Source of the DNA: Zygnema cylindricum
Taxonomy: Eukaryota; Streptophyta; Zygnematophyceae; Zygnematales; Zygnemataceae
DNA: 64,000 nt
Assembly: GCA_037447655.1 (NCBI GenBank)
Contig: JBBHKE010003327.1
Location: forward strand, 1-64,000
Direction: 5' to 3'
The notes beneath the pieces were generated by a model, which was not told the DNA's origin, searched no databases, and saw only the letters and a list, made by a program, of their open reading frames with translations. Made by a program: the position numbers and the translations under genes. Positions 5,100 to 43,025 of the stretch are shown here, one piece after another. How positions within the stretch are numbered: position 1 is the first letter of the stretch; every line of letters starts with the position of its first letter.

Positions 5100-6083
5100 T
5101 TTCACAACAAAACAAGAGGCCATGTACTGAGCCTCCATAGTCGACTGAGCAACCACCTGTTGTTGCTTGCTACTCCGATAGCAAACACCTTGCCCCACAT
5201 ACAACACATACCTAGAAGTACATCTTCTCATAGGTGCATCCCCATAACTAACATCACTCCAAGTAGTGATGTCATTGTGCTCCCCTCCCAAATGCAATCA
5301 TAAATCCCTGGTTCCCACCACATATCTCATGACTCTTTTCGTTGCCTCCCAATCTCTCTTTATAGGATCATTAAGGATCCTACCGAGGACTCAAATTGTT
5401 GCCGCTATATCCGGCCTATTACAGTTTATAAAGTAGATAAAGCTTCCTACAACCTGCCTGTAAGGAATAGACTTCATAAACTCTCTCTCTTCTGAACTCA
5501 TCTGATCATCCAAGATTATCACCCCTCCTTCTACACTCCCATCACTTACTTTCTTCAAGTCCATGGGATTGGTACAGTTGTTTGCCTTTTCCATATGGAA
5601 TTTCTCATGCATATTCTCTATAGCTTCTTTCAGAGTGAATCTGATAATCTTCTTCCCTGTATCTCTCTCCATTTGAATTTCCAAAATGTATCTTGCCTCC
5701 CCTAAATCCTACATGTCAAACCTACTTCTAAGATCTTTCTTTAACTTATTGATCTTTTTCATAGACTTATTTAACACCAACAAATCACCCACATAAATAG
5801 AATTGAAAATAAAACCATTCTCATCCTCAAACATATAAAAAGAATGGTCAAAACTGATCCGGATATATCCCCGACCGGTGAGAAACTCGTCTTGTTTCTT
5901 GTTCTATTGTCTAGGAGCCTACTTCAATCCATATAAGAACTTTATGAGTCGGCATACTTTACTCTCCTCTCCTTCCTCTACAAAACCTTATGGTTGCCGC
6001 ATGAAGATTTCTTCCTCTAGCTCACTGTTGAGGAAGGCGTTGTTAATATCCATCTTGTGTATTTCCATGTCTTCCATTGCTGT
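5100..6083 (-). pseudogene. copia-2: RT C-terminal half and RNase H
   Basis: This is the downstream half of a minus-strand copia polymerase: MDINNAFLNSELEEEI near 6050, the polymerase motif at 5784-5795 reading YVGD (second catalytic Asp changed to Gly), the IPYRQVVGSFIYF segment, and RNase H (WSDVSYGDAPMRRC, AQSTMEAQYMA) ending at 5100 where the copia-1 LTR begins. The upstream half is at 16370-17285, so the gypsy element in between inserted into this gene. The Asp change makes it catalytically dead. Confidence 0.88.
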
Positions 6084-6307
6084 CAAGCGCGTGTGCATCT
6101 TCGGCACATTTGCACTCCCAAGAGTTCCGGGGCTTCATTCCACTTTGTACGGACTCTAGCGTACGGAGAAGGAAGAGGACAATCAGCCGGATGATATCTT
6201 TCTATTTTCATCCTGGAACACCACGCAATTTAGTTCACCTTAAACGGAGGTCGAACTGAGGAGTTAGTCCAGTGCAAAGTGTCTGATCCATTACAGTGTG
6301 TGTTCTA
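6084..6307. other. Unshared left flank of the gypsy element
   Basis: These 224 bp lie between the interrupted copia-2 gene and the repeated part of the LTR. No coding potential was recognised. It is either the outer part of the 5' LTR, lost from the 3' copy by the deletion, or an older insertion. Confidence 0.4.
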
Positions 6308-7268
6308 TGTAGCTCTAGTAGAGGGATACCTTAGAGAACGACACGTAACAATTGGGATTATCCCGTAGATCTTACTGTTAGCTGTCAGTATGATGTTAGA
6401 TCAGGCCCAACCACCGGGCAAAGCATTAATGACGTTGGGACAAAGTTAGGCGGTTTCACGTCGAGTCAGAACTTTGTTTCATTTTGTGTGTGATAGAAGG
6501 ACCCTCGGCCGCTAATCCAGCCGGGACCAGTCGTCTAATTTTTAGCCCTGAGTGTAGTACAGTCTGTTTTGTCTTATGTCCGTACGATAACAATTGTTGG
6601 CCGCTAATTGGCTTGTCACATTGCTTTGACTTTGGAACTTGCAGTAGGACAAACTCTGGTTGTATAAGGCACTTGGGGCCGAAGGAGACAGGTTGCTTTT
6701 TCAGTAATGTCTCCTGAGAAAACCCCCAGAGAATTAAATCAATCTTTCTGTTGGAGAACGGTTGCATTGTGTCGTTGACTCTATTGCCATCTTTGTTTTA
6801 GATTGTCTTTTGTGGAGACCGTAGCACGGGTGGGTAGTTGGCACTATCTCCTCTTTGGGCGGTTTGGACTTTCGCTGTTTGAAACTAAGAAGAGTTTTGT
6901 CGGATCCTTGCGGTGGAACCGGGAGGGGTGAGGGAGACTCATACCGGTCTTCGGGACCATTGGGAGAGGTTTTCTTCTGCTGAGTTTGGTCATCATTGTA
7001 CTCCGTGGTATGTGAATTCGCTTCACCATTATCATTCATTTCTATCTTTAATTCCATTCTCTGGGGCAAGGTGATATTGTTTAATCTGGAAAGCCGATAT
7101 TTGTTATTTCTATATTTCTGCGTGGGAGTTATTTGCACACTCTTGTGGTCATCTTTGGGTTTGTCCGGAGTTTTTGCGGAAAGGATCGGACGACTCTCAT
7201 TTCCTTCCTATTCTTTGGAGAGTAGCTGGGAGTGTGGCATTTAGTGGGCTCCCAGCGGAGTAGCACAG
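6308..7268 (+). repeat. 5' LTR of the methyltransferase gypsy element
   Basis: This ~955 bp repeat matches 15187-16145 with roughly 14 substitutions by eye (about 1.5 percent) and a 5-bp indel near the end. The low divergence implies a fairly recent insertion. The shared segment starts at AGCTCTAGTAGAGGG and ends near GCGGAGTAGCAC. The left boundary is uncertain because the 3' copy is truncated on its left by a deletion. Confidence 0.85.
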
Positions 7269-7364: not shown

Positions 7365-10300
7365 ATGGGCGGAGGAGAAGCTCCGGATAAGGATCCTTCC
7401 AGTGTTAGTCCGGAAGAACAGGAAAGACCAGAAGGGGTGGCACAAGAGGAAGAGTCCCAAGTGCCTGAGGAATCGCTCCCTTTCACCTCTGCTGTGAACA
7501 TTGAACAGTTTCTTTAGGGGATGATGCCCAATCCGGTTGTCGTCGAGACTCCCCCGAGGCCGACAAAGAGGCAACCCTCACCTCCACCTCCTCCAGTCTT
7601 TTCCGCTGAAAAATTTCCGACGTTGTCCGAGGCCGCCAGGGCTAGGGCCACGGGGAAGGTAGAAAGACAACCTTTATCTCCCCGATCTCGTAGAAAGGGT
7701 TTGGCTCACAAGGAAGCGGTCCCAGGCCACCCTCCCGAGGTGGTACGTTATACCAGATCCAAGGCTCCAATAGTGGAGACATACATGGATCCTGAGCTCT
7801 TGTCGGATCCTAACCGACCCGGTCGTAAGGAGATTCTAGCCCTTCACAATATTCATGAGTTAAAGGTTAAGAAGGAGCTGGTGCAGCGCGTTGCCAGAAG
7901 CGACCGAGCCCGGATCATACGCCCCGTGGGAGGAGTAGTGGAGATCCTGAGTAGCTCGTCCGAGAGTGGCTCTCCCATCTCAGCCCGAGAGCAACCGGAG
8001 ATGCCGTCTACTTCACGACAACAGCCCACCATGTCTCAGGAAACGGCTACCAGCAGACCTTCTAGGGGCAGAGCAACTTCTCGGGGCCGGACCAGGGAAG
8101 GGAGTAGCAAGCGAAAGGTACCTGAGCCTAAGAGAGATTTCCGGTTCAACCATCGGGACAGCAAAGGTCGATTTGCTCCCCTAGTCAAAGAAGAGCCGTT
8201 CTTTCCTTCTGCCTCAATTTCCCCAAGTTCCATGTCTCCTTCCGCACCATTTGTCCGACCATCCGAAGGACTATGGCGTTCAAGGCCTACGGACCCCGAG
8301 ATACCCGGTTTGGGGATTGCGGATATCTCGGGTGTGGTGAGCAACACCCAGAAATTGGTTGAGATTCTGCGATCGCAGGATAAGGCTACGGCGGGGGCCG
8401 GACCCGTCGCAATTGATTGGGATGCCCTTGAAGAGGAAAGGAAGAGAGCATTGGAACAGGAGCTGATCCTGATACGGGAGGCTAGACGGAGATCTGGGGG
8501 AATCCTTAGTGGACAGGTAGTACCTCCTCGTAGAACAGGTCCCGCGACGGAAGAACTACCTCTGGATCAGACAACTCCTCCTGCCACGCGAGATCCCCGG
8601 ACTTCACCAGAACCGAGACAAATCTCCTCTTCATCGGGAAGGGGAGGAAACAACAGGGCCTAACAAAAAGGGGTTGGGTGCAGATTTGCCGAGTAATCCG
8701 GTGGCCGCGGCTACAGATCTCCCTACATTTGTCGCGGTCGAGGGATCTTCTACCGTGGAGGCCTTGGTGCAGCTACAACCAGACCAGAGATTACACATTT
8801 CCCTCGGGCTTACTACTCCTCCTCCATCGCCACCTCCGGCATCTTCTCGTTCGCCTTCTGTTTCTCCGGCCGCTGCAGTCCGTGGGTCACCGGACCACCA
8901 GTCTTACCCTACAAGTACGACGTTCCTGCCTACTCTCCTCCTCACCGACGTTCTCCCGGTTCCAGCGAAGGAACTCCTCCACCAGAAACCTCCACAAGGC
9001 GTACACGGAGACAGACACCTTTCCCTCGTAGCCCTCCGTCATCTCCATCCCTTTCTCCACCAATCCCTCAACGACCACCGGTGACTAAACCCATTCTCCA
9101 CATTCCCTCGGTGGAAACACTTCAACGGGAGGAACGGGCCTCTCCTGGGTATAGAGGAGCAGGACTTCGAGCAGCTTTTCCCAAGGTGATAAGCTCCTCG
9201 TTTCCCAAGGGCCAACTCCAGGGAGATACTGGTCATCTCACTATCCCACCCGTAACCAGAACTTCCTCAGTGGGGGGGAGTGCCATCTCTCGTCAGACCG
9301 CTCCCTCTACCGGAGAAGGAGGCGAGCCCGAGCAAGACAACGCAGATCCAGGGGTAATTTCACCGGTCCAGTTTGTTAGCCCAACCGGACCATCCTCTTC
9401 ACAGTTCACCAACCTTGCAGAGGAGGAAAAAAAAATGGGAGACGTCCGGATCTTCACCGGGGACAACTCGGGAATTGCCTTCTCTGATTTTGAACTGCTG
9501 TGGAAATCCTTCACGCAGTCCGAAATTAACAAATACAGGGGAGGGGCCATTCCAGCAGATTTTGAAACAACCCTGTTTCCGATGATGGTAAATTATCTAG
9601 CCGGAGGAGCTTTGGCCGATTATAAGGAGCGTCAACCTTTGTTAATGGCTCCCAGTATCAAAATATCGGATCCGGTTCTGGACGCCGAGGCTCTTCAGGC
9701 AGCAGCCGACTTGGCTGCCGCAGCCGCAGCTCCTCTCACCGCCACTTTCACCATGGATATGAAACTTCAGGCCCAAGGCAGGGCCTATGTCAACCACCTG
9801 TAGGCGGTACAGGCAGCCGAAGCAGCCACCAGGATGGTTGCCAATCCTAACCCCTGTACCACCCTTCTAGACGCTTGGAGACTCCTTTATACTGAAAGGA
9901 AAGAAATTGCCATCAAGGAGTTCACAGACTTCCGCTGTTTGAAGAAAAAAACTCCCCAAACGTTGTTCAACCGCCTCTCCAGCCTTTGCTAGAAGACCAA
10001 ACTGTCCACCATCGATACACCGGCTATGGCCAACAAATATTATGTCGTTGTTCGAAATTCCTTCGGGCCAACAGGACAGGCAGCTCTGGACAATTGGAGC
10101 GCCAGTCAGGCTATACACGATCGGAATCCCACAGCTCAAGAAATTTCATTGGCTGCTATGAAATTGTATGATCATTTTGTTAATAGCGAGGAACGAGAAA
10201 AGGCTGTTACCGGGAAATCCAGAGCCAACTTTGCAGGTTTCGCCGGGGAAACATCGCTCAGCCACGACGAACAGACAGAACTGCAAGCTTTGCGGAAGCT

Positions 10301-11486
10301 TAAGGGGAAACAGGAAGCGGATGCCCGACCAGAACCTGCAATGGGGGGAGATGAAAAAGTTTTTCTTTACGACTGCCTGAACTGTAACCAGCCAGGTCAC
10401 GGATGGAAGAGGTGCCCCCGAAAGCTCAAACCAGAACTCGCCATCAAGCAGAAGGAGTTTGAAAGGGAGCGTGCGGAAAGAACAAGGAAACAGCAAGAAC
10501 GCAAGCAAGGAGGCGGAGGAGGAGACCGAACCCCGGTGACTAAGGAAACCTATAAACCTACTCCACGCTCTGAAACAGCCAAAATGTCTCAATCCCAATT
10601 GAGGCAAATCCGACTTCTGAAATTCGATGACGCTCAAATCTCTAATGAGCTAAGGGGGAAGTCTAATACTGAAGGGTCAAAATGTGAAGCTTGTGGGTTC
10701 ATGGGCCACAAAGAAGGGCAATGCTTTCGGAAAAATGGGGTTACGAAGGAGATGATGCAGTATGCATTGTTTACAAGCGAAGGGGAAACTGCCGTTAATC
10801 CTCTGCCACTGCAACTTTTGTATCCTTGGGGACGATCTCCAAATGAACCGGGGCCCAGCAAACTGACACCGGAACATATCATTCAGCAACAAAGCACTCA
10901 GTTGGCCGCTTTGGCAACAGAAACGGCCGCTCTCCGACTGCGATCCTCTGCCCGCACTCCTCCACCTCTTACGCCGGCTCAGAAACTGCAGAAACAAAAA
11001 CAAGAACCGCTACAAAAGCTAGCGGAGCTGGAGCAGCAGACCACGTTGGGTGGAGATGATGATGACCCGATGGGTTGGGATATGGAGCCTCCAAAGGCTC
11101 AGCATGCTAGGACATATCTGTCCGGAGCATGAAACGTTGGTGTAAGGGACTGTCGCAGGCAACTGCGCTCTACAACATCATTCCAAAGAAAAGACAAACA
11201 ACCGATGGAACAAAAGGACCACAGTCGCAAAGCCACCGGCCCCTTATCCTTTACCCCGCGAGCAGTACTTCTAAACAGTGACGTTGGACTGGGACTCAAG
11301 CCGACTAACCCACCTCCTCCGGCTCCGAAGAAACTTCCTCCCGGTTTTGAAGATTACAAGAAGACAAAACTGAAAGAAAATACTTCAACCACAGAAACAG
11401 ATTAGGAGTGGTTTGACAGATACATGGCAGTCAGACCGTCCACAGATCCGCCAATTACACCTCCAACGATGAATTTTGACGCATAA
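7365..11486 (+). pseudogene. Gypsy Gag with two zinc knuckles
   Basis: A long frame starts with ATG at 7365 and is interrupted by TAG (7515, 9801, 9989), TGA (11130), TAG (11403) and TAA (11484), plus two frame changes around 8640-9080. The N-terminal ~550 residues are Pro/Ser/Arg-rich. A capsid-like region follows (about 9430-10200; NSGIAFSDFELLWKSF, GRAYVNHL). Then come CCHC knuckles CLNCNQPGHGWKRC (10374-10415) and CEACGFMGHKEGQC (10683-10724), separated by a charged coiled-coil-like stretch. Gag is unusually long (about 1350 codons) for gypsy. It would form the particle and bind RNA. Confidence 0.8.
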
Positions 11487-11509: not shown

Positions 11510-12378
11510 ACCAGGAGAAATCGGAAGACGAGGACTCACCCATTTCATCGCCCAAAGCTCTCCCTCCTTCCTCCAAACCGGCAGTCATGCTAGTACGACA
11601 CTTAATGCCCTACGCCTTGACGCATGTCAAAACGCTGGCTTCCTCCCAGAATCTACCCGAAAAAACCCTCATTCAGGCATTAGGGGAAGAAATTCACACT
11701 AGGAGGAAAAGGGTCGCGTTGGCATAACCGCCCAAGACAGTCTTCATGTGGGTAGAACCAAAAACCTCTATGGCAGATAGGGATTATAAGGCCCTTTCGG
11801 TGGCTCTTATCCTCAACAGGACGGGAAATTTTAAACTTAATGGATACGGCGGGTACCAGGATGCAGTGGTGGATACCGAAGCTCTTCCAAACTTAATAAC
11901 TACATCAGCGTTACAACAAATGCCCGAGGAACTCCGGCCAAAAATCAGTCCAAGTGACATATGCTTGAGCATAGTCAGCAGTGGCAGCCAACCAGTATAT
12001 GGGATCATAAAAGCCATGGAAATCGAATTTGCTGACAACGCTGGCCAGCATGTGCAGATTCGACTTCCCTTCCTAGTGGTGGAAGGTAAGCAATTTGAAA
12101 TTTTGCTGGGTATGGCGACGTGGACAAGGATGAACATGGAGTTGAGCGTATGGAAGGAACAAGTTACAGTCTCAGACCATGAGGATCCGGAAGGAACAAA
12201 AGTGGTGGTCCCCTTGGATTTGTGGAACCGGGGAAAAACGACTGTTCCGGTGTCTGGATGCTATCCCGTCTACTCTGCCTCAACCCCCTCAGAGCTGTTC
12301 AAATACTCAAACGATATCGTTGATTCTATCTAGCAATTCCCTATTTCCAAGCGGTGGGAAAGGGAGAATCAGAACCGA
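11510..12378 (+). pseudogene. Gypsy retropepsin (aspartic protease)
   Basis: In the same frame as the methyltransferase, a ~200-residue segment resembles a gypsy retropepsin. The active-site region AVVDTEALPNLI stands where D-T/S-G-A is expected (Gly changed to Glu). A flap region follows, then ILLGMATWTRMN matching the ILG-hydrophobic motif. TAA at 11725 and TAG at 12331 interrupt the frame. The changed active-site Gly predicts an inactive protease in this copy. The active enzyme would release Gag, the methyltransferase, RT and the other domains from the polyprotein. Confidence 0.7.
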
Positions 12379-13656
12379 TTGGTACAGATGGCCACACTTC
12401 GACGGGAAGTGGACAGGAGCTTGGCTGCAATATCACCCGGAGCAGCAAAAGTCCACCGGTCGGAACTTCCAACGGTTCCTAGCAAAGGGAAAGACTTCAA
12501 TCGACAAGTGGTGTCACTACAAATCCCGCTTTCAGGACTTAGGATTCTATCCCTATTTTCTGGCATTAGTTCCGATCTGGAAGCCGTCCTGAAAGCAGGA
12601 TACCAAATAGAAACTTACTCGGCGGTCGAGATTGACCCGGACGCCCGTGCAGTCAGTGAGTACCGCCTGCAACAGCTGCACCAACTTTACCCACAGCAAC
12701 TCCCGGTGTCCGCCATGTCTAACTCTCATCGCACGCTTCCCCTGAATGTGGATAATATCACGGAGTCCCATCTGGAAAAGCTCGGAAGGGTAGACCTTGT
12801 GGTCGCTGGATGGCCATGCCAAGGGTATTCGTTAGCACGACAGGGCCGAGGACACCAGGACGTTCGTAGCAGAACTTTCTTTCAAATGATCAGACTAATA
12901 ACAGGGTTACAGAAACGCCAGGACACACCAGTGGGGTACGTCTTGGAAAACGTTCACCCCACAGATGATAAAAGAAAACAGGTGGTCAACAGCTCGAACC
13001 AAGTGACCAAGGTTCTAGGGACTCCCATAGTTTTTGATGCAGCTCAGATCGGATCAAGAGCCCACAGAGGTCGGGCATATTGGACCAACTTGGTTCCTCT
13101 TCCAATCCTCCAACAGCTGTTGAGAACACAAGCTACAGATCCCAACATCACGGTCCAACAGATCCTCGGACCGGGGCGAATGGCCACACCAGTGATCACA
13201 GCCGACAAAGCACCCTTCTTCTGTTGTAATAAGCCTGGGTACCCACGGAGAGCCCTCCCAACACTGGTATCTTTTCCTAATAGCCACGCTTACCGGAAGG
13301 GCGCACCAGGAATGATCTTTGACAGTACAACCGCCATGTGGACAGCGCCGAATATTACAGAACGGGAACTAGCAATGGGGTTTCAAGAGGGAACCACAGC
13401 TGCGCTAGGGGTATCAGCCTCAAAAAAGGTGCAGTTTAATCGGACAAAGCATGGATTTAAATGCAATTTCCTGGGTGCTGAAACATTCTCTTGCATTCTC
13501 AAGCCTTCAGTCTCTAAAATCACGGACAACATACCTTCAAGCTCCACAGTTGTTGGCCATGCAAGCAACTCTAAAGCTCGAGGGGGGGAGAGAGACAAGG
13601 AGGGAAAAATTCACAGTCACCAAATTCCCAGGAACTTCCTCAGTGGGGGGAAGTAA
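12379..13656 (+). CDS. C5 cytosine-DNA methyltransferase domain inside a gypsy element
   Basis: A 425-codon open frame, in phase with the protease upstream. Motif I is LRILSLFSGISSDLEAVL (residues ~54-71, SAM binding), motif II has YSAVEID (80-86), motif IV is AGWPCQGYS with the catalytic Cys at residue 147 (12817-12819), motif VI is VLENV (188-192), and motif VIII is GSRAHRGRAYW (225-235). A weak motif IX/X lies at LPTLV (293-297) and FLGAETF (364-370). The segment NITESHLEKLGRVDLVVAG and motif VIII resemble DNMT3/DRM de novo enzymes. The motif order is canonical (I to X), unlike the rearranged plant DRM order. The whole catalytic core is open, unlike the flanking genes. It would methylate cytosine in DNA, perhaps element cDNA. 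The product would be a polyprotein segment, so the start at 12379 is only the first Met after the stop at 12331. Confidence 0.88.
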   Translation: MVQMATLRREVDRSLAAISPGAAKVHRSELPTVPSKGKDFNRQVVSLQIPLSGLRILSLFSGISSDLEAVLKAGYQIETYSAVEIDPDARAVSEYRLQQLHQLYPQQLPVSAMSNSHRTLPLNVDNITESHLEKLGRVDLVVAGWPCQGYSLARQGRGHQDVRSRTFFQMIRLITGLQKRQDTPVGYVLENVHPTDDKRKQVVNSSNQVTKVLGTPIVFDAAQIGSRAHRGRAYWTNLVPLPILQQLLRTQATDPNITVQQILGPGRMATPVITADKAPFFCCNKPGYPRRALPTLVSFPNSHAYRKGAPGMIFDSTTAMWTAPNITERELAMGFQEGTTAALGVSASKKVQFNRTKHGFKCNFLGAETFSCILKPSVSKITDNIPSSSTVVGHASNSKARGGERDKEGKIHSHQIPRNFLSGGK

Positions 13657-13803
13657 TGCCACACAAGACCCAGGAGTTTCCTTAGTGGGGGGGGGCGGAG
13701 TCCCAGAACAGGATAGCTTAGAGGAAGTTGTCAGCAGCACCGTTTTAACACATGAACAAGGGACCGACCTACAGGTAGAGCTGACCTTCGACATCTCTCT
13801 CTC
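13657..13803 (+). other. Methyltransferase-RT linker with G runs
   Basis: Coding resemblance moves to another frame here (TSSVGGSNATQDPGVSLVGG), then returns for RT. The segment repeats a TTCCTCAGTGGGGGG-type motif at about 13635 and 13680 that also occurs in the Gag region at about 9262, so a Ser/Gly-rich linker seems to have been duplicated. The frame switches fall at G runs. Confidence 0.5.
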
Positions 13804-15180
13804 TTGGGTAGATCACCGGAAGCATTGGCGGCAGTGGAACCCGAGAAGATGGACTGGACTCTAAGTGAACAGCTAGACCCACAGCAGAAGGCCCGGCTCT
13901 CCAAGCTGTTAGAAGATAACGGGCAGGTGTTCGCTTGGTCTAATACCGATGTAGGGATCTATAAAGGGACTCCTTTTTGGATTGACTTGATCGACGAGAC
14001 GGCTACTGTTTGGCAGAAACAGTACCCTCTCAGTTTCAAGGAGAAGGAGTTCATCACTTCAAAGGTGCAGACTTTGGTGGAAGCTGGGCTGGTTCAGGAG
14101 AGTACAGGACTACATGGGTTTGCCTCACCAACCGTGCTCCCGCCAAAGAAAGTCTCCTCCGGGAAAACTGTAGATTTCCGGATGTGTGGGGACTATCGAA
14201 TGCTCAACGCGGCAACTGTCTCCGACCGTTATCCTATGCCTACCCCGGAAGAGATCTTCGACTCTTTTGCTGGGGCCACCATTTACTCCACTTTGGATAT
14301 GAAAAATGGATTCCACCAGATTGCAATGGAGCCGAAACACCGGGAGAGGACTGCTTTTTGGGCCGGATCCATGCTATATGAATGGCTGTACATGCCATTT
14401 GGCCTCAAGAATGCACCTGCCAAATTCTAACGGGCCATAGACGAGGCTCTCCAGGGAATTGATTTCGCACGGTGTTATATCGACGATGTTATCATTTTCT
14501 CCAAGACATTTGAATAACACTTGGAGCACATACAGATCGTTCTCCGGGCACTCCAAGCAGTGGGTTTGAAGTGTCACCCGGGGAAGGGCATCTTTGGGGT
14601 GGAGAAAATTATTTACCTGGGTCATGAGGTGACCCCCGGGACAGTGGGTCCCCACATGGTTAAGGTGGCAACCCTAGATGCTCTTCCACCCCCGCAGGAC
14701 ATTTCTGCTCTTCGTACTTTCCTGGGCCTTGCCAACTATTACCGGCGGTTTATTCCTGAATTCAGTAGCCACGCTCAGCCATTGAACCAATTGTTGCGAA
14801 AGGACCAGGAGTGGCAGTGGAAGGAAGAACAGCAGATAGCGTTCCAATTCCTGAAGGATTCCCTCAACAGCATCCTGTGCTTCGGATGCCCGATCACCAG
14901 CGGCCTTTTCTCCTTTATACAGATTGGAGCAGGTTCGGATTAGGAGCAGTTTTGGCTCAATTAGACGATGCAGGGGCTGAGTATGTAGTGTCCTACGCAA
15001 GCTGGAGTAATAACAGAGCCGAGGGGAATTACAACAGTTACCATGGGGAATTACTCGCCGCGGTTTGGGCCATCCAGCACTTCCGGCCTTACCTCTATAG
15101 AGTACACTTCACCCTTATTACGGATCACCAGCCCCTCAAATGGATCATGGAGAACAGTAAGTTGACTGGAAAGCTAGTAG
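13804..15180 (+). pseudogene. Gypsy reverse transcriptase and truncated RNase H
   Basis: RT motifs in order: LVEAGLVQEST, FRMCGDYRMLNAAT, DRYPMPTPEEIF, STLDMKNGFHQIAM, YMPFGLKNAPAKF, then the catalytic YIDD at 14476-14487, and the connection region LGLANYYRRFIPEFS. TAA stops lie at 14428 and 14515. The frame shifts near 14890 into RNase H (FLLYTDWSRFGLGAVLAQ, YHGELLAAVWAIQHF, ITDHQPLKWI). RNase H ends abruptly at about 15180 and the LTR follows. The family is Ty3/gypsy. The enzyme would copy element RNA into DNA, but this copy cannot do so. Confidence 0.9.
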
Positions 15181-15186
15181 TTATAG

Positions 15187-16145
15187 TGAGCTCTAGTAGA
15201 GGGATACCTTAGAGAACGACACGTAACAATTGGGATTATCCCGTAGATCTTACTGTTAGCTGTCAGTATGATGTTAGTTCAGGCCCAACCACCGGGCAAA
15301 GCATTAATGACGTTGGGACAAAGTTATGCGGTTTCACGTCGAGTCAGAACTTTGTTTCATTTTGTGTGTGATAGAAGGACCCTCCGCCGCTAATCCAGCC
15401 GGGACCAATCGTCTAATTTTTAGCCCTGAGTGTAGTACAATCTGTTTTGTCTTATGTCCGTACGATAACAATTGTTGGCCGCTGATTGGCTTGTCACATT
15501 GCTTTGACTTTGGAACTTGCAATAGGACAAACTCTGGTTGTATAAGGCACTTGGGGCCGAAGGAGACAGGTTGCTTTTTCAGTACTGTCTCCTGAGAAAA
15601 CCCCCAGAGAATTAAATCAATCTTTCTGTTGGAGAACGGTTGCATTGTGTTGTTGACTCTATTGCCATCTTTGTTTTAGATTGTCTTTTGTGGAGACCGT
15701 AGCACGGGTGGGTAGTTGGCACTATCTTCTCTTTGGGCGGTTTGGACTTTCGCTGTTTGAAACTAAGAAGAGTTTTGTCGGATCCTTGCGGTGGAACCGG
15801 GAGGGGTGAGGGAGACTCATACCGGTCTTCGGGACCATTGGGAGAGGTTTTCTTCTGCTGAGTTTGGTCATCGTTGTAATCCGGGGTATGTGAATTCGCT
15901 TCACCATTATCATTCATTTCTATCTTTAATTCCATTCTCTGGGGCAAGGTGATATTGTTTAATCTGGAAAGCCGATATTTGTTATTTCTATATTTCTGCG
16001 TGGGAGTTATTTGCACACTCTTGTGGTCATCTTTGGGTTTGTCCGGAGTTTTTGCGGAAAGGATCGGACGACTCTCATTTCCTTCCTATTCTTTGGAGAG
16101 TAGCTGGGAGTGTGGCATTTAGTGGGCTTCCAGCGGAGTAGCACT
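15187..16145 (+). repeat. 3' LTR of the methyltransferase gypsy element, left end truncated
   Basis: Direct repeat of 6308-7268. Its left edge is fused to RNase H coding sequence at about 15180-15187, with no integrase, 3' untranslated region or polypurine tract in between. It is therefore a deletion junction rather than a normal LTR start. The right edge runs into a G-rich unique segment (runs of 12 and 8 G at about 16155 and 16220). Confidence 0.85.
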
Positions 16146-16369
16146 GAAATCTGGGGGGGGGGGGAGGGGGCACCTTTCTTTTCCACCCCATTCCTCCTTA
16201 CTATCTTTGCATATCCCTGGGGGGGGGTAATGAACAGAGATGGGCATTATCACGGATCCAAGGGAGCATCAGCATTTGGGGGTGGATTGCAGGTTTCTCA
16301 TGCACACCTCCTTCGACATATAACCTGGACCTCCCGGTTACCAGGCACGCTCCACATTGGTGCTTGACT
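16146..16369. other. Unshared right flank of the gypsy element, G-rich
   Basis: This segment lies between the 3' LTR repeat and copia-2. It contains long G runs and no recognised coding sequence. It ends GCTTGAC, inverted relative to GTCAAGC at 6084. It may be the outer part of the 3' LTR, absent from the 5' copy. Confidence 0.35.
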
Positions 16370-29928: not shown

Positions 29929-30556
29929 TGTTGATTTTATTGGCGATTTTGGGCAATATCGGGTATCGTCGATTTTATATGACAGGTGTCACATCGCCAA
30001 TTTTGTGTGACCGACGTCACATCGTGGATCAGTACCATTTATACAAACGGATGTCAGGATTTGGACGACATGGAGTCATACCATTGTTACAATCATTCAG
30101 TTGTAAAACGTCAGATCCAAGTGAACAAGCATGTGTAGACATCATTTCATTGGACCACATTAGAGAGTGCATTATTTATACTGATTGCATTAGAATACAA
30201 ATAGGCACTCAGAAGAGACAAGAGACATCCTTCATCCATTAATGCAAGAATAACAGTTCTTAAATTGTCAAGTGAGACAAGGAATAGAATTTGTCTTTAT
30301 TAGAGAAAGTCTTTTGTAACACTGTCCTAAAAGAACCATTTATTAAAGCTACGGCTTTCCTACAATTCTATTTTGTATCTTTGCCTACTTTATCTGTTTG
30401 CTAATTATATCCCTCCCTAATCTTTCCTATCTCTCTTGTCCAAATACTTTGTGACTCCCTAAGCCCCTCTGCGTGTATTGACCTGTGGCTGGTCAAAGCT
30501 ATCCGTGATTACGATGAACTCTCCTCGTTAGTTCAGATGACTGACCTAGAGCGACA
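29929..30556 (+). repeat. 5' LTR of the LARD-like element (628 bp)
   Basis: Begins TGTTGATTTTA and ends GCGACA. It aligns without gaps in length to 42398-43025. The target duplication AACTT lies directly to its left. Confidence 0.9.
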
Positions 30557-31984: not shown

Positions 31985-31989
31985 AGGAG
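31985..31989. repeat. Target site duplication of copia-4 (AGGAG), left
   Basis: AGGAG precedes TGTTG of the left LTR and is repeated at 39328-39332 after CAACA of the right LTR. Confidence 0.9.
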
Positions 31990-32829
31990 TGTTGTTTTGG
32001 AAAGCTTTAGTCCTCTCTATGCCTCGAGTGTGAGGGAGAGAGAGTTTCACGACTTAGCATATGTTTGGTTGTAAGTTCGTTTCATTAAACACCAGAATTG
32101 ATGTTCAACTAGATCGGTATGGAGTAAACATTTGTATACACTCCCGAGGCTCAAGTCACTACAAGAAAGAAGACACTCCAGAATATCCGATTGTTTGTGG
32201 ATAGATACACTTCAGGATAAAATGGCACATGGAGATTTGTCTACGGTGCCGAATGTGATATGTACGCGGCTGAGGGAGACCGCCGACAAATGGTGGTCCG
32301 TGTGAACCACATACACGACAAATGACGTGGCATATAGAATCCTACTCCTTTGTAAATATCTAGTTAAGTAGATTTTTGTCTTTGTGTGGTTAGTTGATTA
32401 GTAAAGGAATCTTTTTGTTTGACGTACCTTGTTCGGTTTGAGCCGCAGGTATTTATTTTACGGCTGGTATGCCTCCGTACTTTCAGCAGCATAGGCTTCG
32501 GTGTATATTAGTAGGACTTAGATAACTTTGAAGGTATGAACATTTTGTAGTCAAAAACTGTACAACCTGTTTTTGGCATTTTCATCTGTGAATATCTCAC
32601 AGATCTGTTGGCAGAATTACTTGTAATTTTGTGTGTATGTTTATCCTAATATTATCAACACTGTGGTAGATTTTCAGAGATATATTGTCTCTGGATTGGG
32701 TTTTATCAACTGTTGAAGTTGCTGTTTTTCAGACCAGTTTTTGTGAAAGTTTCTTGCTTGGTTTGGTTCCGAGATGACTACACCGGCATCCTCATCGTCT
32801 TCGGTTCCGGCTGTTGTCTCAGAACAACA
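31990..32829 (+). repeat. 5' LTR of copia-4 (840 bp)
   Basis: TGTTGTTTTGG at the start, GAACAACA at the end. It ends in a short Ser/Pro coding-like stretch after an ATG that is shared by both LTRs. It matches 38471-39327. Confidence 0.9.
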
Positions 32830-32860
32830 AGACTTACTCAGAAGGAAGCAATAGGTAATA

Positions 32861-38445: not shown

Positions 38446-38470
38446 AGGAGAGTCTAAAGCTTTAGGGGAG

Positions 38471-39327
38471 TGTTGTTTTGGAAAGCTTTAGTCCTCTCTA
38501 TGCCTCGAGTGTGAGGGAGAGAGAGTTTCACGACTTAGCATATGTTTGGTTGTAAGTTCGTTTCATTACACACCAGAATTGATGTTCCACTAGATCGGTA
38601 GGGAGTACACATTTGTATACACTCCCGAGACTCAAGTCACTACAAGAAAGAAGTCACTACAAGAAAGAAGACACTCCAGAATATCCGATTGTTTGTGGAT
38701 AGATACACTTGAGGATAAAATGGCACATGGAGATTTGTCTACGGTGCCGAATGTGATATGTACGCGGCTGAGGGAGACCACCGACAAATGCTGGTCCGTG
38801 TGAACCACATACACGACAAATGACGTGGCATATAGAATCCTACTCCTTTGTAAATATCTAGTTAAGTAGATTTTTGTCTTTGTGTGGTTAGTTGATTAGT
38901 AAAGGAATCTTTTTGTGTGACGTACCTTGTTTGGTTCGAGCCGTAGGTATTTATTGTACGGCTGGTATGCCTCCGTACGTTCAGCAGCATAGGCTTCAGT
39001 GTATATTAGTAGGACTTAGATAACTTTGAAGTTATGAACATTTTGTAGTCAAAAACTGTACAGCCTGTTTTTGGCATTTTCATCTGTGGATATCTCACAG
39101 ATCTGTTGGCAAAATTACTTGTAATTTTGTGTGTGTGTTCATCCTGATATTATCTACTTTGTGGTAGATTTGCAGAGCTATTGTGTCTCTGGTTTGGGTT
39201 TTATCAACTGTTGAAGTTGCTGTTTTTCAGACCGGTTTTTGTGAAAGTTTCTTGCTTGGTTTGGTTCCGAGATGACTACACCGGCATCCTTATCGTCTTC
39301 GGTTCCGGCTGTTATCTCAGAACAACA
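38471..39327 (+). repeat. 3' LTR of copia-4 (857 bp)
   Basis: Preceded by the purine tract TTTAGGGGAG. It is 17 bp longer than the 5' copy because ACTACAAGAAAGAAG is duplicated at about 38639-38670. AGGAG follows at 39328. Confidence 0.9.
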
Positions 39328-42300
39328 AGGAGGACATCAGCGGGAGATCTTACCAAAAGGGAGTTGAAAGTCAGGTGTTGCAGAAAGACACCACGCTTCA
39401 GGTGTCACCGGATGGCATCACATCGAGTAGTTTCGCCTCAGAATGGCTGGAAACCACGACAAAGGAAATCTACGGAGAGATCACAGAGAGTGCTCCAAAT
39501 CAAATAAGTACTTTATCATCAACAATCTGCAAGGAGGACGAGACAAACGTCCTGCAAGAAAACGCCACAATGATCGCCAGTCACGCAAAGCAAATGGAGA
39601 CAGATTCCACATTAACAATGCACGTTGATACAGGAAATCAAGCGACAAAGGACTGTAGCACCAGCGAACAAGAAGTTCAAAATATTGCAGCGAACAAGAA
39701 GTTCAAAATATTGCAGGTGTACGGGACACGACATCAACAAACGGAAGGAATCAAATTCATTTCAAAGAGGAAGAAAAAGGGGAAGTAGACTCAGAACCAT
39801 ACCTTAAGAATCCTGTAAAAGCGAGAGGCAATCCCAAGCGAGATGACAATAGAGGTGGTGGTAGAGAGAGAACCAAAAATACCCTCTCGGTCATCGTCGC
39901 GCTAGGTCGCACGGACAGTGTCCTAGGAACTAGCTCAAATGACAAGATAGTCCAAGATCTGCATAGAGAGAGAGAGATCGAAAATCAGTTTTATGATAGT
40001 AAAACTCATGCAAAAAGTGGAAAAATGGCAGAAAGAACCCGAAGGTAGCAAACCACATGCTGGATATCTCACAAAACCCAAGAGTCAAGGGGACTTAGAC
40101 AGCGGAAGCATTAGTGAGCAAGGTGTAGAGAGAAGACAGAAAAAGAAAGAAAAACATAACATAGAAAAGAAAGAAATGAAGATGTAAAACAGTGGGAGAA
40201 AGGAGAAAGAATCAAAAGATAAAGGAGTGAATTCACTAACCTGCAGATACACCACCGGAAGTGCAGATGACGAGGTCGGCCTAGACCACCACCTCCACTC
40301 TCGAATACCCACCTCTATCAATGGGAGGAAGATTGTTTCGGCATTCGAATTTCAGAAAAATCTGTCAAAAACGCCACAGGAGAAAGCAATAACAGTTAGT
40401 GAGTCGGCGAAATTGGTGTCCACTTTGACACAAACGCCAAGAGAAAACAAAGAGGATCAAGAAGGACTCAAGCACGAGCCCGATCACGAGTACAAAGAAA
40501 ACACTATCAATTTTGAGAATCTTGGAGCATTTAGGTCAATCAGAAGGACGAATGTCCCAAAAGCGGCAAACGGTGTCTTACCTCAAGCACGGAGGACATG
40601 GCAGAAAAAGATGGAGAGCGTACAGAAGCCATTCGGCTCTCCTAATGCCTCATCCCTTTGAGATGGAGGAAGTGGACCTGCATAGAGAAGTCCACGAGTG
40701 ACATCGGCTCTCCTAATGCCTCATCCCTTGGAGATGGAGGAAGTGGACCTGCATAGAAAAGTCCACGAGTGACATCAGATGTCAAAATCAGCAAACCCAA
40801 AAAATCTGCCACAACTCAATCAAGTGGAGAAGATTGGAGGTCAAGAGGTAAAAATCAAGAAAACTCTCAGTGCAGATTTTCCGCATGCAAAAGAGCCAAG
40901 GAATGCAAGCCTAAGGAGAGGATTAGTTGAGAAATCACCTTACAGTTTAGAGATAGTGGGAGATTCCGGATCTCCACCACTACGTACTCCACAGAAATCC
41001 ATCAAGTTCACCATCAAATCTGCGATCACGAAAGTCCAAATGTCAAACCAGATGCTAGAGGAGGTCAAAGAGGATAAAGGAGTGTTAAAGTACGAATCAT
41101 TTAGAGATGCGTTGCTGGGAAATTTCACTGGAAGAGAAACAATCAAGCAAGCAGCCAAGGAAGGAGTAAGTTACACTCACCTTGAGAAGGAAGAAAATCC
41201 GGAGAGCCGGCCCTGATTAATCCACATTCGAGTCCATGCGCCAAGCAAGTGCAGATGGAGCGTCCACCCATAAAGAACACAGCGGAACGCGTGGAGGAGC
41301 AAGAGGAAGAAATCCTAACCCTAATTCCTAACCCCACCTCAATGTCCATTTTCAGCACGACGGCTTCGAAAGGAAACAAAGGAAGGAAGAGAGGAGGTGT
41401 AGCTTCGGCAAGGAAGCTTAAGGAGAGGAGGAAAGTGCGAAAGGAAACGCTAAGGGGAGCACGAGAACTTAGAGAGGAGGAGAGGGGCGAACAGATAGCA
41501 GACAGGGAAAATTGGGAAATTATCCTAACCCTAGAAAAGTTGGCATAAGTACACTTGATGCCAACTCAAAGTACAACTTCGCACGAAGTGAAGATACCTT
41601 CCCTAAATCGCGGCGAAGGCGCACGATTGAAATCGAACCTTCACTCATGACCCTTGATCTAAATCTTAAGTGTACATCAAAGTACAACGAAGTCTCGACC
41701 AAATGAGACTTCGCCATATAGGCCGCCGGAAACGCATACGACGTCACGACACCAAAGTTTTTCATTCGTGGGCAACGACATATTGGGCGACAAGTCATAC
41801 GTGAAACGTAGGATTGGCGACAACCATGCGAGTTACAATCCGCAATCGCAATCCACACCATTGTACCGAAATCAAGGAACAGCGAGCGTCGTTCGATTTC
41901 ACTGACAAATTTCACGCAGGTACATCAAAATGTTTCAACGGACGAGGACCACCCTGAATTATCAACGGTCGAAAACCATCCAGTTGGAGACGTACGAGGT
42001 ACATTCGAGGAAACGTTAAAACCCATGCTGAAGTTATCGATTCCACGATCTTGAAAATTTACAAAACCAGAGATCAACGGATATGGGAGTCTCGAGCTCA
42101 CAGACGAAGCGGATGAGCTCCACGTGTCTAATGACGAGGGAATCACATCGGATTCCAATGTTTACATGAAAAACTTGTCAGCATGCGACGACACAATTTC
42201 ACATGCGAAAGTGGGAGGAAATTTCATACCTTCCAAATTTCACGTCGTACAGGTTCACAGTTCGAACGGACACGCGGCTATTTCCTTTGGTACGGATCAG

Positions 42301-42397: not shown

Positions 42398-43025
42398 TGT
42401 TGATTTTATTAGCGATTTTGGGCAATATCGGGTATCGCCGATTTTATGTGATTGGTGTCACATCGCCGATTTTGTGTGATCGACGTCACATCGTGGAACA
42501 GTACCATTTATACGAACGGATGTCACGATTTGGACGACATGGAGTCATACCATTGTTAGAATCATGCAGTTGTAAATAGTCAGATCCAAGTGAACAAGCA
42601 TGTGTAGACATCATTTCATTGGACCACATAAGAGAGTGCATTATTTATACAGACTGCATTAGAATACAAATAGGCACTCAGAAGAGACAAGAGACATCCT
42701 TCATCCATTAATGCAAGAATAGCAGTTCTGAAATAGTCAAGTGAGACAAGGAATAGAATTTGGCTTTATTAGAGAAAGTCTTTTGTAACATTGTCCTAAA
42801 AGGACCATTTATTAAAGCTACCGCTTTCCTACAATTCTATTTTGTATCTTTGCCTACTTTATCTGTTTGCTAATTATATCCCTTTCTAATCTTTCCTATC
42901 TCTCTTGTCCAAATACTTTGTGACTCCCTAAGCCCCTCTGCGTGTATTGATCTGTGGCCGGTCAAAGCTATCCGTGATTACGAGGAACTCTCCTCGTTAG
43001 TTCGGATGACCAACCCAAAGCGACT
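42398..43025 (+). repeat. 3' LTR of the LARD-like element (628 bp)
   Basis: Preceded by the purine tract GAGTGGGAG. Begins TGTTGATTTTA and ends GCGACT, one base changed from the left copy. The duplicated target AACTT follows at 43026-43030. Confidence 0.9.

Follow-up and report, generated by a model that had tools for sequence, protein, structure and literature searches.

DNA methylation is a standard defense against transposons, and since it is used against them, an element that keeps a methyltransferase of its own presents a paradox. In 2018 such elements were reported from dinoflagellates and from a single charophyte, two lineages in all (PMC5890265). The charophyte element, KnitGypsy-Dnmt3 of Klebsormidium nitens, was described by de Mendoza et al. 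2018 (PMC5890265). In Symbiodinium, SymbioDIRS-Dnmt3 and SymbioLINE-Dnmt are likewise retrotransposons that encode a cytosine methyltransferase, of DNMT3 type in SymbioDIRS, but they are DIRS and LINE elements rather than long terminal repeat (LTR) Gypsy elements with an integrase, and they were reported as independent acquisitions (PMC5890265). Retrotransposon-embedded DNMT3 in streptophytes and dinoflagellates is mentioned in a 2025 paper (PMC12344493), and another paper reports DNMT-bearing elements to be absent from land plants such as tracheophytes (PMC6338049). Here we describe a 64,000-nucleotide stretch of Zygnema cylindricum DNA (contig JBBHKE010003327.1 of assembly GCA_037447655.1, positions 1 to 64,000, forward strand), called the window below, which holds a new, dead member of this kind of element, itself known since 2018.

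The window contains a decayed LTR retrotransposon of the Ty3/gypsy type in which a methyltransferase predicted to be of DNMT3 type stands between the protease (PR) and the reverse transcriptase (RT), and we consider it probable that the enzyme of its intact relatives would methylate their own cDNA. What is shown here is the order gag-PR-DNMT-RT-RNase H (RH), the DNMT3/DRM affinity, catalytic residues that the examined relatives conserve, a divergence of DNMT that runs parallel to that of RT, and where this copy is defective. As in KnitGypsy-Dnmt3, a DNMT3-type domain lies in the Pol open reading frame (ORF) of an LTR Gypsy element of a streptophyte alga, with its key residues kept (PMC5890265). 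An earlier note on this DNA had proposed a likeness to charophyte elements, and in kind it was right.

Gag, the protease region, the C5-cytosine methyltransferase, RT, and RNase H all lie on the + strand between the LTRs, in that order (Table 1). The LTR match, Pfam, and motifs bear out the arrangement given in the earlier note, with protease region, methyltransferase core, and RT on the same strand between two LTRs. The protease and methyltransferase share a frame, as had been claimed, and RT is in that frame too, with stops intervening (ORFs 11746-12333, 12379-13656, and 13804-14430). Residues 55-234 of the methyltransferase ORF match PF00145 (E 6.2e-12), and the ORF contains LSLFSGI (12547-12567), GWPCQG (within 12805-12831), LENV (within 12940-12954), and SRAHRGR (within 13051-13092); Pfam gave no ADD or PWWP match in it. 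Motifs I-IX are in the protease/RT frame and motif X (GQSMDLN, 13442-13480) is shifted to the next frame; the motifs also follow in linear order through X in the printed DNMT relatives. The RT matches PF00078 (E 2.5e-11) and is 70% identical to the RT of P0001, a protein with DNMT and RT in one ORF. The RNase H matches PF17917 (E 8.1e-30) and PF17919 (E 2.8e-25).

The protease is broken. Its ORF gave no match in Pfam, and the region was called protease because of its position, its DTE and ILLGM motifs (VVDTEA, 11866-11889; ILLGM, 12100-12114), and P0002, a relative in which an aspartyl protease match is followed by the methyltransferase in one ORF. Position, ILLGM, and the likeness to P0002 favor the protease that the earlier note had seen; it has DTE and not DTG, however, whereas DTGA or DSGA is found in relatives. 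Seven internal stops interrupt the gag frame (7515, 8661, 8694, 9801, 9990, 11130, and 11403), and gag was without a Pfam match in the three pieces tested. Compared with the Ty3/gypsy Pol order, the CCHC knuckles, the PR position, RT, and RH are present and the integrase is missing here; in relatives it is present after RH.

Table 1. Features of the DNMT-bearing element and its surroundings in the window
Feature	Position	Strand	Remarks
copia element hosting the insert, left flank	5112..6075	-	continues at 16368
Left insert end piece	6076..6310	.	outside LTR match; 235 bp; copia similarity stops at 6075
5' LTR	6311..7266	+	part matching 3' LTR 15189-16144; true LTR may begin further left
gag region	7365..11483	+	one frame; closes at 11484; stop table and ORFs
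First CCHC zinc knuckle (CLNCNQPGHGWKRC)	10374..10415	+	motif scan
Second CCHC zinc knuckle (CEACGFMGHKEGQC)	10683..10724	+	motif scan
Protease region, broken	11728..12333	+	ends in TAG 12331; ORF 11746-12333
C5-cytosine methyltransferase, predicted DNMT3 type	12334..13480	+	ORF 12379-13656; motif X in next frame
Reverse transcriptase	13756..14514	+	ORF 13804-14430; stop at 14428, next stop 14515; catalytic motif YIDDV in 14431-14514
RNase H	14811..15188	+	shifted frame; cut off at 3' LTR junction
3' LTR	15189..16144	+	adjoins RNase H; 5' part probably missing
Right insert end piece	16145..16367	.	outside LTR match; 223 bp; copia similarity restarts at 16368

This copy would make no working enzyme. 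The earlier note had called the methyltransferase core open; motifs I-IX are indeed in frame, but the core is not intact, because stops occur at 12331 and 13654 and a frameshift lies just before motif X. Stops in the pol frame were found at 12331, 13654, 13714, 13753, 14428, 14515, and 14941, with those at 13714 and 13753 lying where the reading frame has shifted. An alternative genetic code was rejected by argument as an explanation, since TGA, TAA, and TAG all occur among the in-frame stops, together with frameshifts. Between RNase H and the 3' LTR there is no integrase. RNase H runs straight into the LTR, from which we infer that the integrase, and probably the beginning of the 3' LTR as well, were lost in an internal deletion. 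A 23-base G-run motif (GAACTTCCTCAGTGGGGGG) was seen three times in the element, at 9259-9281 in gag and at 13632-13654 and 13674-13696 between DNMT and RT, the later two occurrences being 96% and 78% identical to the first.

Long direct terminal repeats flank the coding region, although their exact ends are not fixed. The two 956-base direct repeats are identical at 942 of 956 positions, without gaps. Judged by its LTRs, which differ at 14 positions, the copy is young, yet it is broken. The LTR-bounded unit in which the earlier note had set the features of 11510..15180 is real; the actual unit is larger, spanning about 6.1-16.4 kb of the window, and sits inside a copia element. This position follows because copia similarity ends at one border of the insert and resumes at the other, and because both flanks align to neighboring stretches, 12 bases apart, of an uninterrupted copia copy at 600-1600. 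No convincing target-site duplication was found at the borders of the insert, where three 4-base matches equal the chance expectation for the positions tried. For KnitGypsy-Dnmt3, a DIRS-like repeat layout was reported (PMC5890265), whereas the window element has two direct LTR-like repeats only. When a DIRS-like A-coding-B-A-B layout was tested here, one long direct-repeat pair was found around the coding region and the end pieces were unmatched; neither piece has another match within the window. These pieces are possibly the remainder of a DIRS-like layout, or an older insertion.

A fragmented copy lying inside another element could consist of a host DNMT gene or retrocopy placed by chance between unrelated element fragments, or of a gene captured by this copy alone. 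The relatives speak against this. A search with the window methyltransferase returned 19 proteins (17 at E 4e-34 or better), a search with the RT of P0001 returned 108, and a DNMT profile search, which scored only the 7995 candidates sharing most words, returned 59. Both DNMT and RT profiles, the former built from trimmed columns, matched 43 of the 178 fetched proteins, and the DNMT started N-terminal to the RT in 43 of 43; within this set the DNMT match covers only 39 residues in P0039 and P0046, and the RT match is partial in P0004 and P0010. Closterium accounts for 37 of the 43 and Marchantia polymorpha for one. The latter, P0069 (MARPO_0091s0058), is a predicted protein with PR-DNMT-RT-RH in 1190 residues, encoded on a contig of 870 kb, and by its domain content is a land-plant member of the DNMT-Gypsy family. 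Two single ORFs of Closterium extend further, with CCHC-PR-DNMT-RT-RH-integrase zinc domain in P0130, where the protease is below the Pfam cut-offs but has IIDTGA, and CCHC-DNMT-RT-RH-integrase in P0129. Integrase domains follow RH in P0127, P0129, P0130 (zinc domain only), P0135, P0020, and P0023. The order PR-DNMT-RT thus recurs in other species. Host-gene placement or single capture is refuted by P0001, P0002, P0069, and P0130, and the same order in single ORFs of several lineages, the shared frame, and the correlation of DNMT with RT distances leave it a negligible probability. The methyltransferase belongs to the element, as the earlier note had supposed.

In six proteins the RT is preceded by more than 300 residues but no DNMT, and the three of these placed in the RT tree all fall outside the 46-row clade that includes the window. 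In many other RT proteins, including P0035 and P0053 of K. nitens and those of Calypogeia, the ORF begins at or near the RT, and the DNMT status is unreadable. A scan of genome contigs with P0001, using short exact patterns, found no relative, which makes for a weak absence.

The Pol proteins of Closterium and Marchantia (P0129, P0130, P0069, and others) have the same domain order as the window element, with an integrase as well in Closterium. The representatives printed are 30-40% identical to the window in DNMT and 36-43% in RT, and the members from each genus form clades of their own in both trees. The window and Marchantia read GWPCQ, whereas all eight Closterium proteins printed read GWECQ. 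This substitution of Glu for Pro before the catalytic Cys was seen in 18 of 34 DNMT rows, from Closterium and from P0009, P0014, and P0139 among others, with the Cys kept. None of the aligned DNMT rows examined departs from the catalytic Cys, Glu, and Arg, a conservation far above the column mean. Animal DNMT3A and DNMT3B are the best PDB matches of the window methyltransferase in sequence and fold; these enzymes are not part of a retroelement, unlike the window methyltransferase within its Pol, and DNMT3A lacks the roughly 20 residues (FPxxLP...LPxDI) that the printed relatives have inserted ahead of motif IV. We assign the window methyltransferase to the DNMT3 type, with DNMT3/DRM affinity; in a structural second look DRM was not among the 50 rows listed, which excludes nothing. 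In the literature covered, which left most subscription papers and all bioRxiv preprints outside its scope, no report of a DNMT-bearing Gypsy element from Closterium or a liverwort was found. These proteins suggest that the charophyte case is a family present also in Closterium and a liverwort and not the curiosity of one alga. The reach of the family is a more interesting result than the window copy itself.

To place the element, trees were built for both domains. In the RT tree, made with a quick method from 55 rows hand-picked out of 135, the window groups with P0001, P0020, P0021, and P0022 (Shimodaira-Hasegawa-like approximate likelihood ratio test [SH-aLRT] 100) inside a clade of 46 rows (SH-aLRT 96). 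This clade also contains Closterium, Marchantia with Calypogeia, and P0035 and P0053 of K. nitens, whose ORFs start about 80-120 residues before the RT, too short to show a DNMT; the DNMTs of KnitGypsy-Dnmt3 and the window were compared by description only. In the DNMT tree (41 of 90 matching sequences, namely the long-domain ones and four distant ones), P0001 is the row nearest to the window by path, Closterium forms one clade of 17 rows (100/100), and Marchantia joins the metagenome rows P0005, P0016, and P0017 (94/86). This tree is no proof of a single origin, because support for the 37-row retroelement side is 80/99, long branches lead to the outgroup, and the window is in none of the starred clades. 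Among the candidates scored in the DNMT profile search, neither a plant host DNMT3 nor a K. nitens DNMT3 came up. Over 16 proteins, the pairwise distances in DNMT correlate with those in RT at 0.926, with 0 of 9999 permutations as high; 13 of the 16 are from Closterium, which makes for a small effective sample.

The simplest reading of the comparison is that the DNMT has long been inherited together with Pol, and its acquisition by the lineage was likely a single event. A fuller version, which we put forward tentatively and at slightly less than even probability, is that one ancient Gypsy lineage took up DNMT3 once and kept it in Pol from Klebsormidium-like and zygnematophyte algae to Marchantia, with some branches adding a histone-reading PHD finger on the integrase. 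If so, a single parasite lineage would combine a writer of chromatin marks with a reader of them.

A PHD finger (PF00628) and an integrase core are listed together for nine RT relatives (P0020, P0022, P0023, P0025, P0026, P0029, P0031, P0036, and P0040), of which P0020 and P0022 belong to the window's own RT clade; PF00628 was re-run for P0020 and P0023 only. In P0127, P0129, and P0135 of Closterium the PHD match was absent, and DNMT and PHD were not seen together in any one protein.

Pol domains of Gypsy elements are packaged with the RNA and act in reverse transcription and integration. A DNMT3 domain between PR and RT would be freed, or left fused, and is predicted to share the particle with RT and integrase. 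There it would meet double-stranded cDNA and could methylate it de novo before or during integration, so that new copies would arrive bearing the host's own mark, as protection or camouflage. We infer that the domain is packaged with RT, that it methylates the cDNA de novo, most likely at CG, and that the element benefits. Methylation of cDNA appears the most likely role because of this packaging and because DNMT3 domains from Symbiodinium retrotransposons gave CG methylation in yeast (PMC5890265). Long ORFs with an integrase make the purpose of the enzyme testable in tractable plants such as Marchantia.

A scar of self-methylation was looked for in the element, in its CpG content and LTR differences, and none was found. 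The observed/expected CpG ratio is 0.67 (0.62-0.73) in the internal region of the element, 0.47 (0.40-0.56) in stretches assigned to copia, and 0.82 (0.75-0.90) in the rest of the window. SymbioLINE is CpG depleted (PMC5890265), whereas the window element is less depleted than the neighboring copia. This CpG content lends self-methylation no support and weighs against a strong long-term effect. Of 8 transitions between the LTRs, 6 have a CG or CHG context (read by eye; one-sided p about 0.025). This pattern would be consistent with plant-type methylation by the host once the element had inserted, and it gives no pointer to the enzyme of the element.

The lack of extra CpG depletion would suit a domain that Pol retains to bind nucleic acid or to serve as a structural spacer, with methylation incidental. 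So would the Glu for Pro in 18 of 34 rows and in the eight printed Closterium proteins, and the inactivity of the K. nitens domain in yeast, an inconclusive negative (PMC5890265). Invariance of the catalytic Cys, Glu, and Arg and the activity on DNA of the like Symbiodinium domains (PMC5890265) argue against this possibility, which we regard as improbable. Somewhat less improbable, but still unlikely, is action in trans, in which Pol set free in the cell would methylate host chromatin or rival elements, or repress its own element and so spare the host. Self-limitation was raised as one possibility by de Mendoza et al. (PMC5890265), Closterium, with its 37 of 43 DNMT-RT proteins, probably has many copies, and the PHD finger listed with the integrase in nine RT relatives is a possible chromatin reader. 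A domain within Pol is, however, as established for LTR elements, normally packaged with RT, which speaks against action in trans; the measurements made here do not separate cis from trans.

Scans of viral contigs with A1 and P0005 found no relative, a weak absence given the short exact patterns used, and the window methyltransferase gave a single 56-residue match (41%), around the catalytic motif, to an IMG/VR contig (L001). Elsewhere in the window, nine ORFs outside the element were searched against Pfam, and copia-type domains only were found, in two of the nine. Rfam at the gathering threshold gave no match in the window, and ARAGORN found one tRNA-Glu. A copia pol at 34.6-38.4 kb is enclosed by two pairs of direct repeats, one nested in the other, at about 94% identity (29929-30555 with 42398-43024, and 31986-32831 with 38467-39329); these represent further inserted elements.
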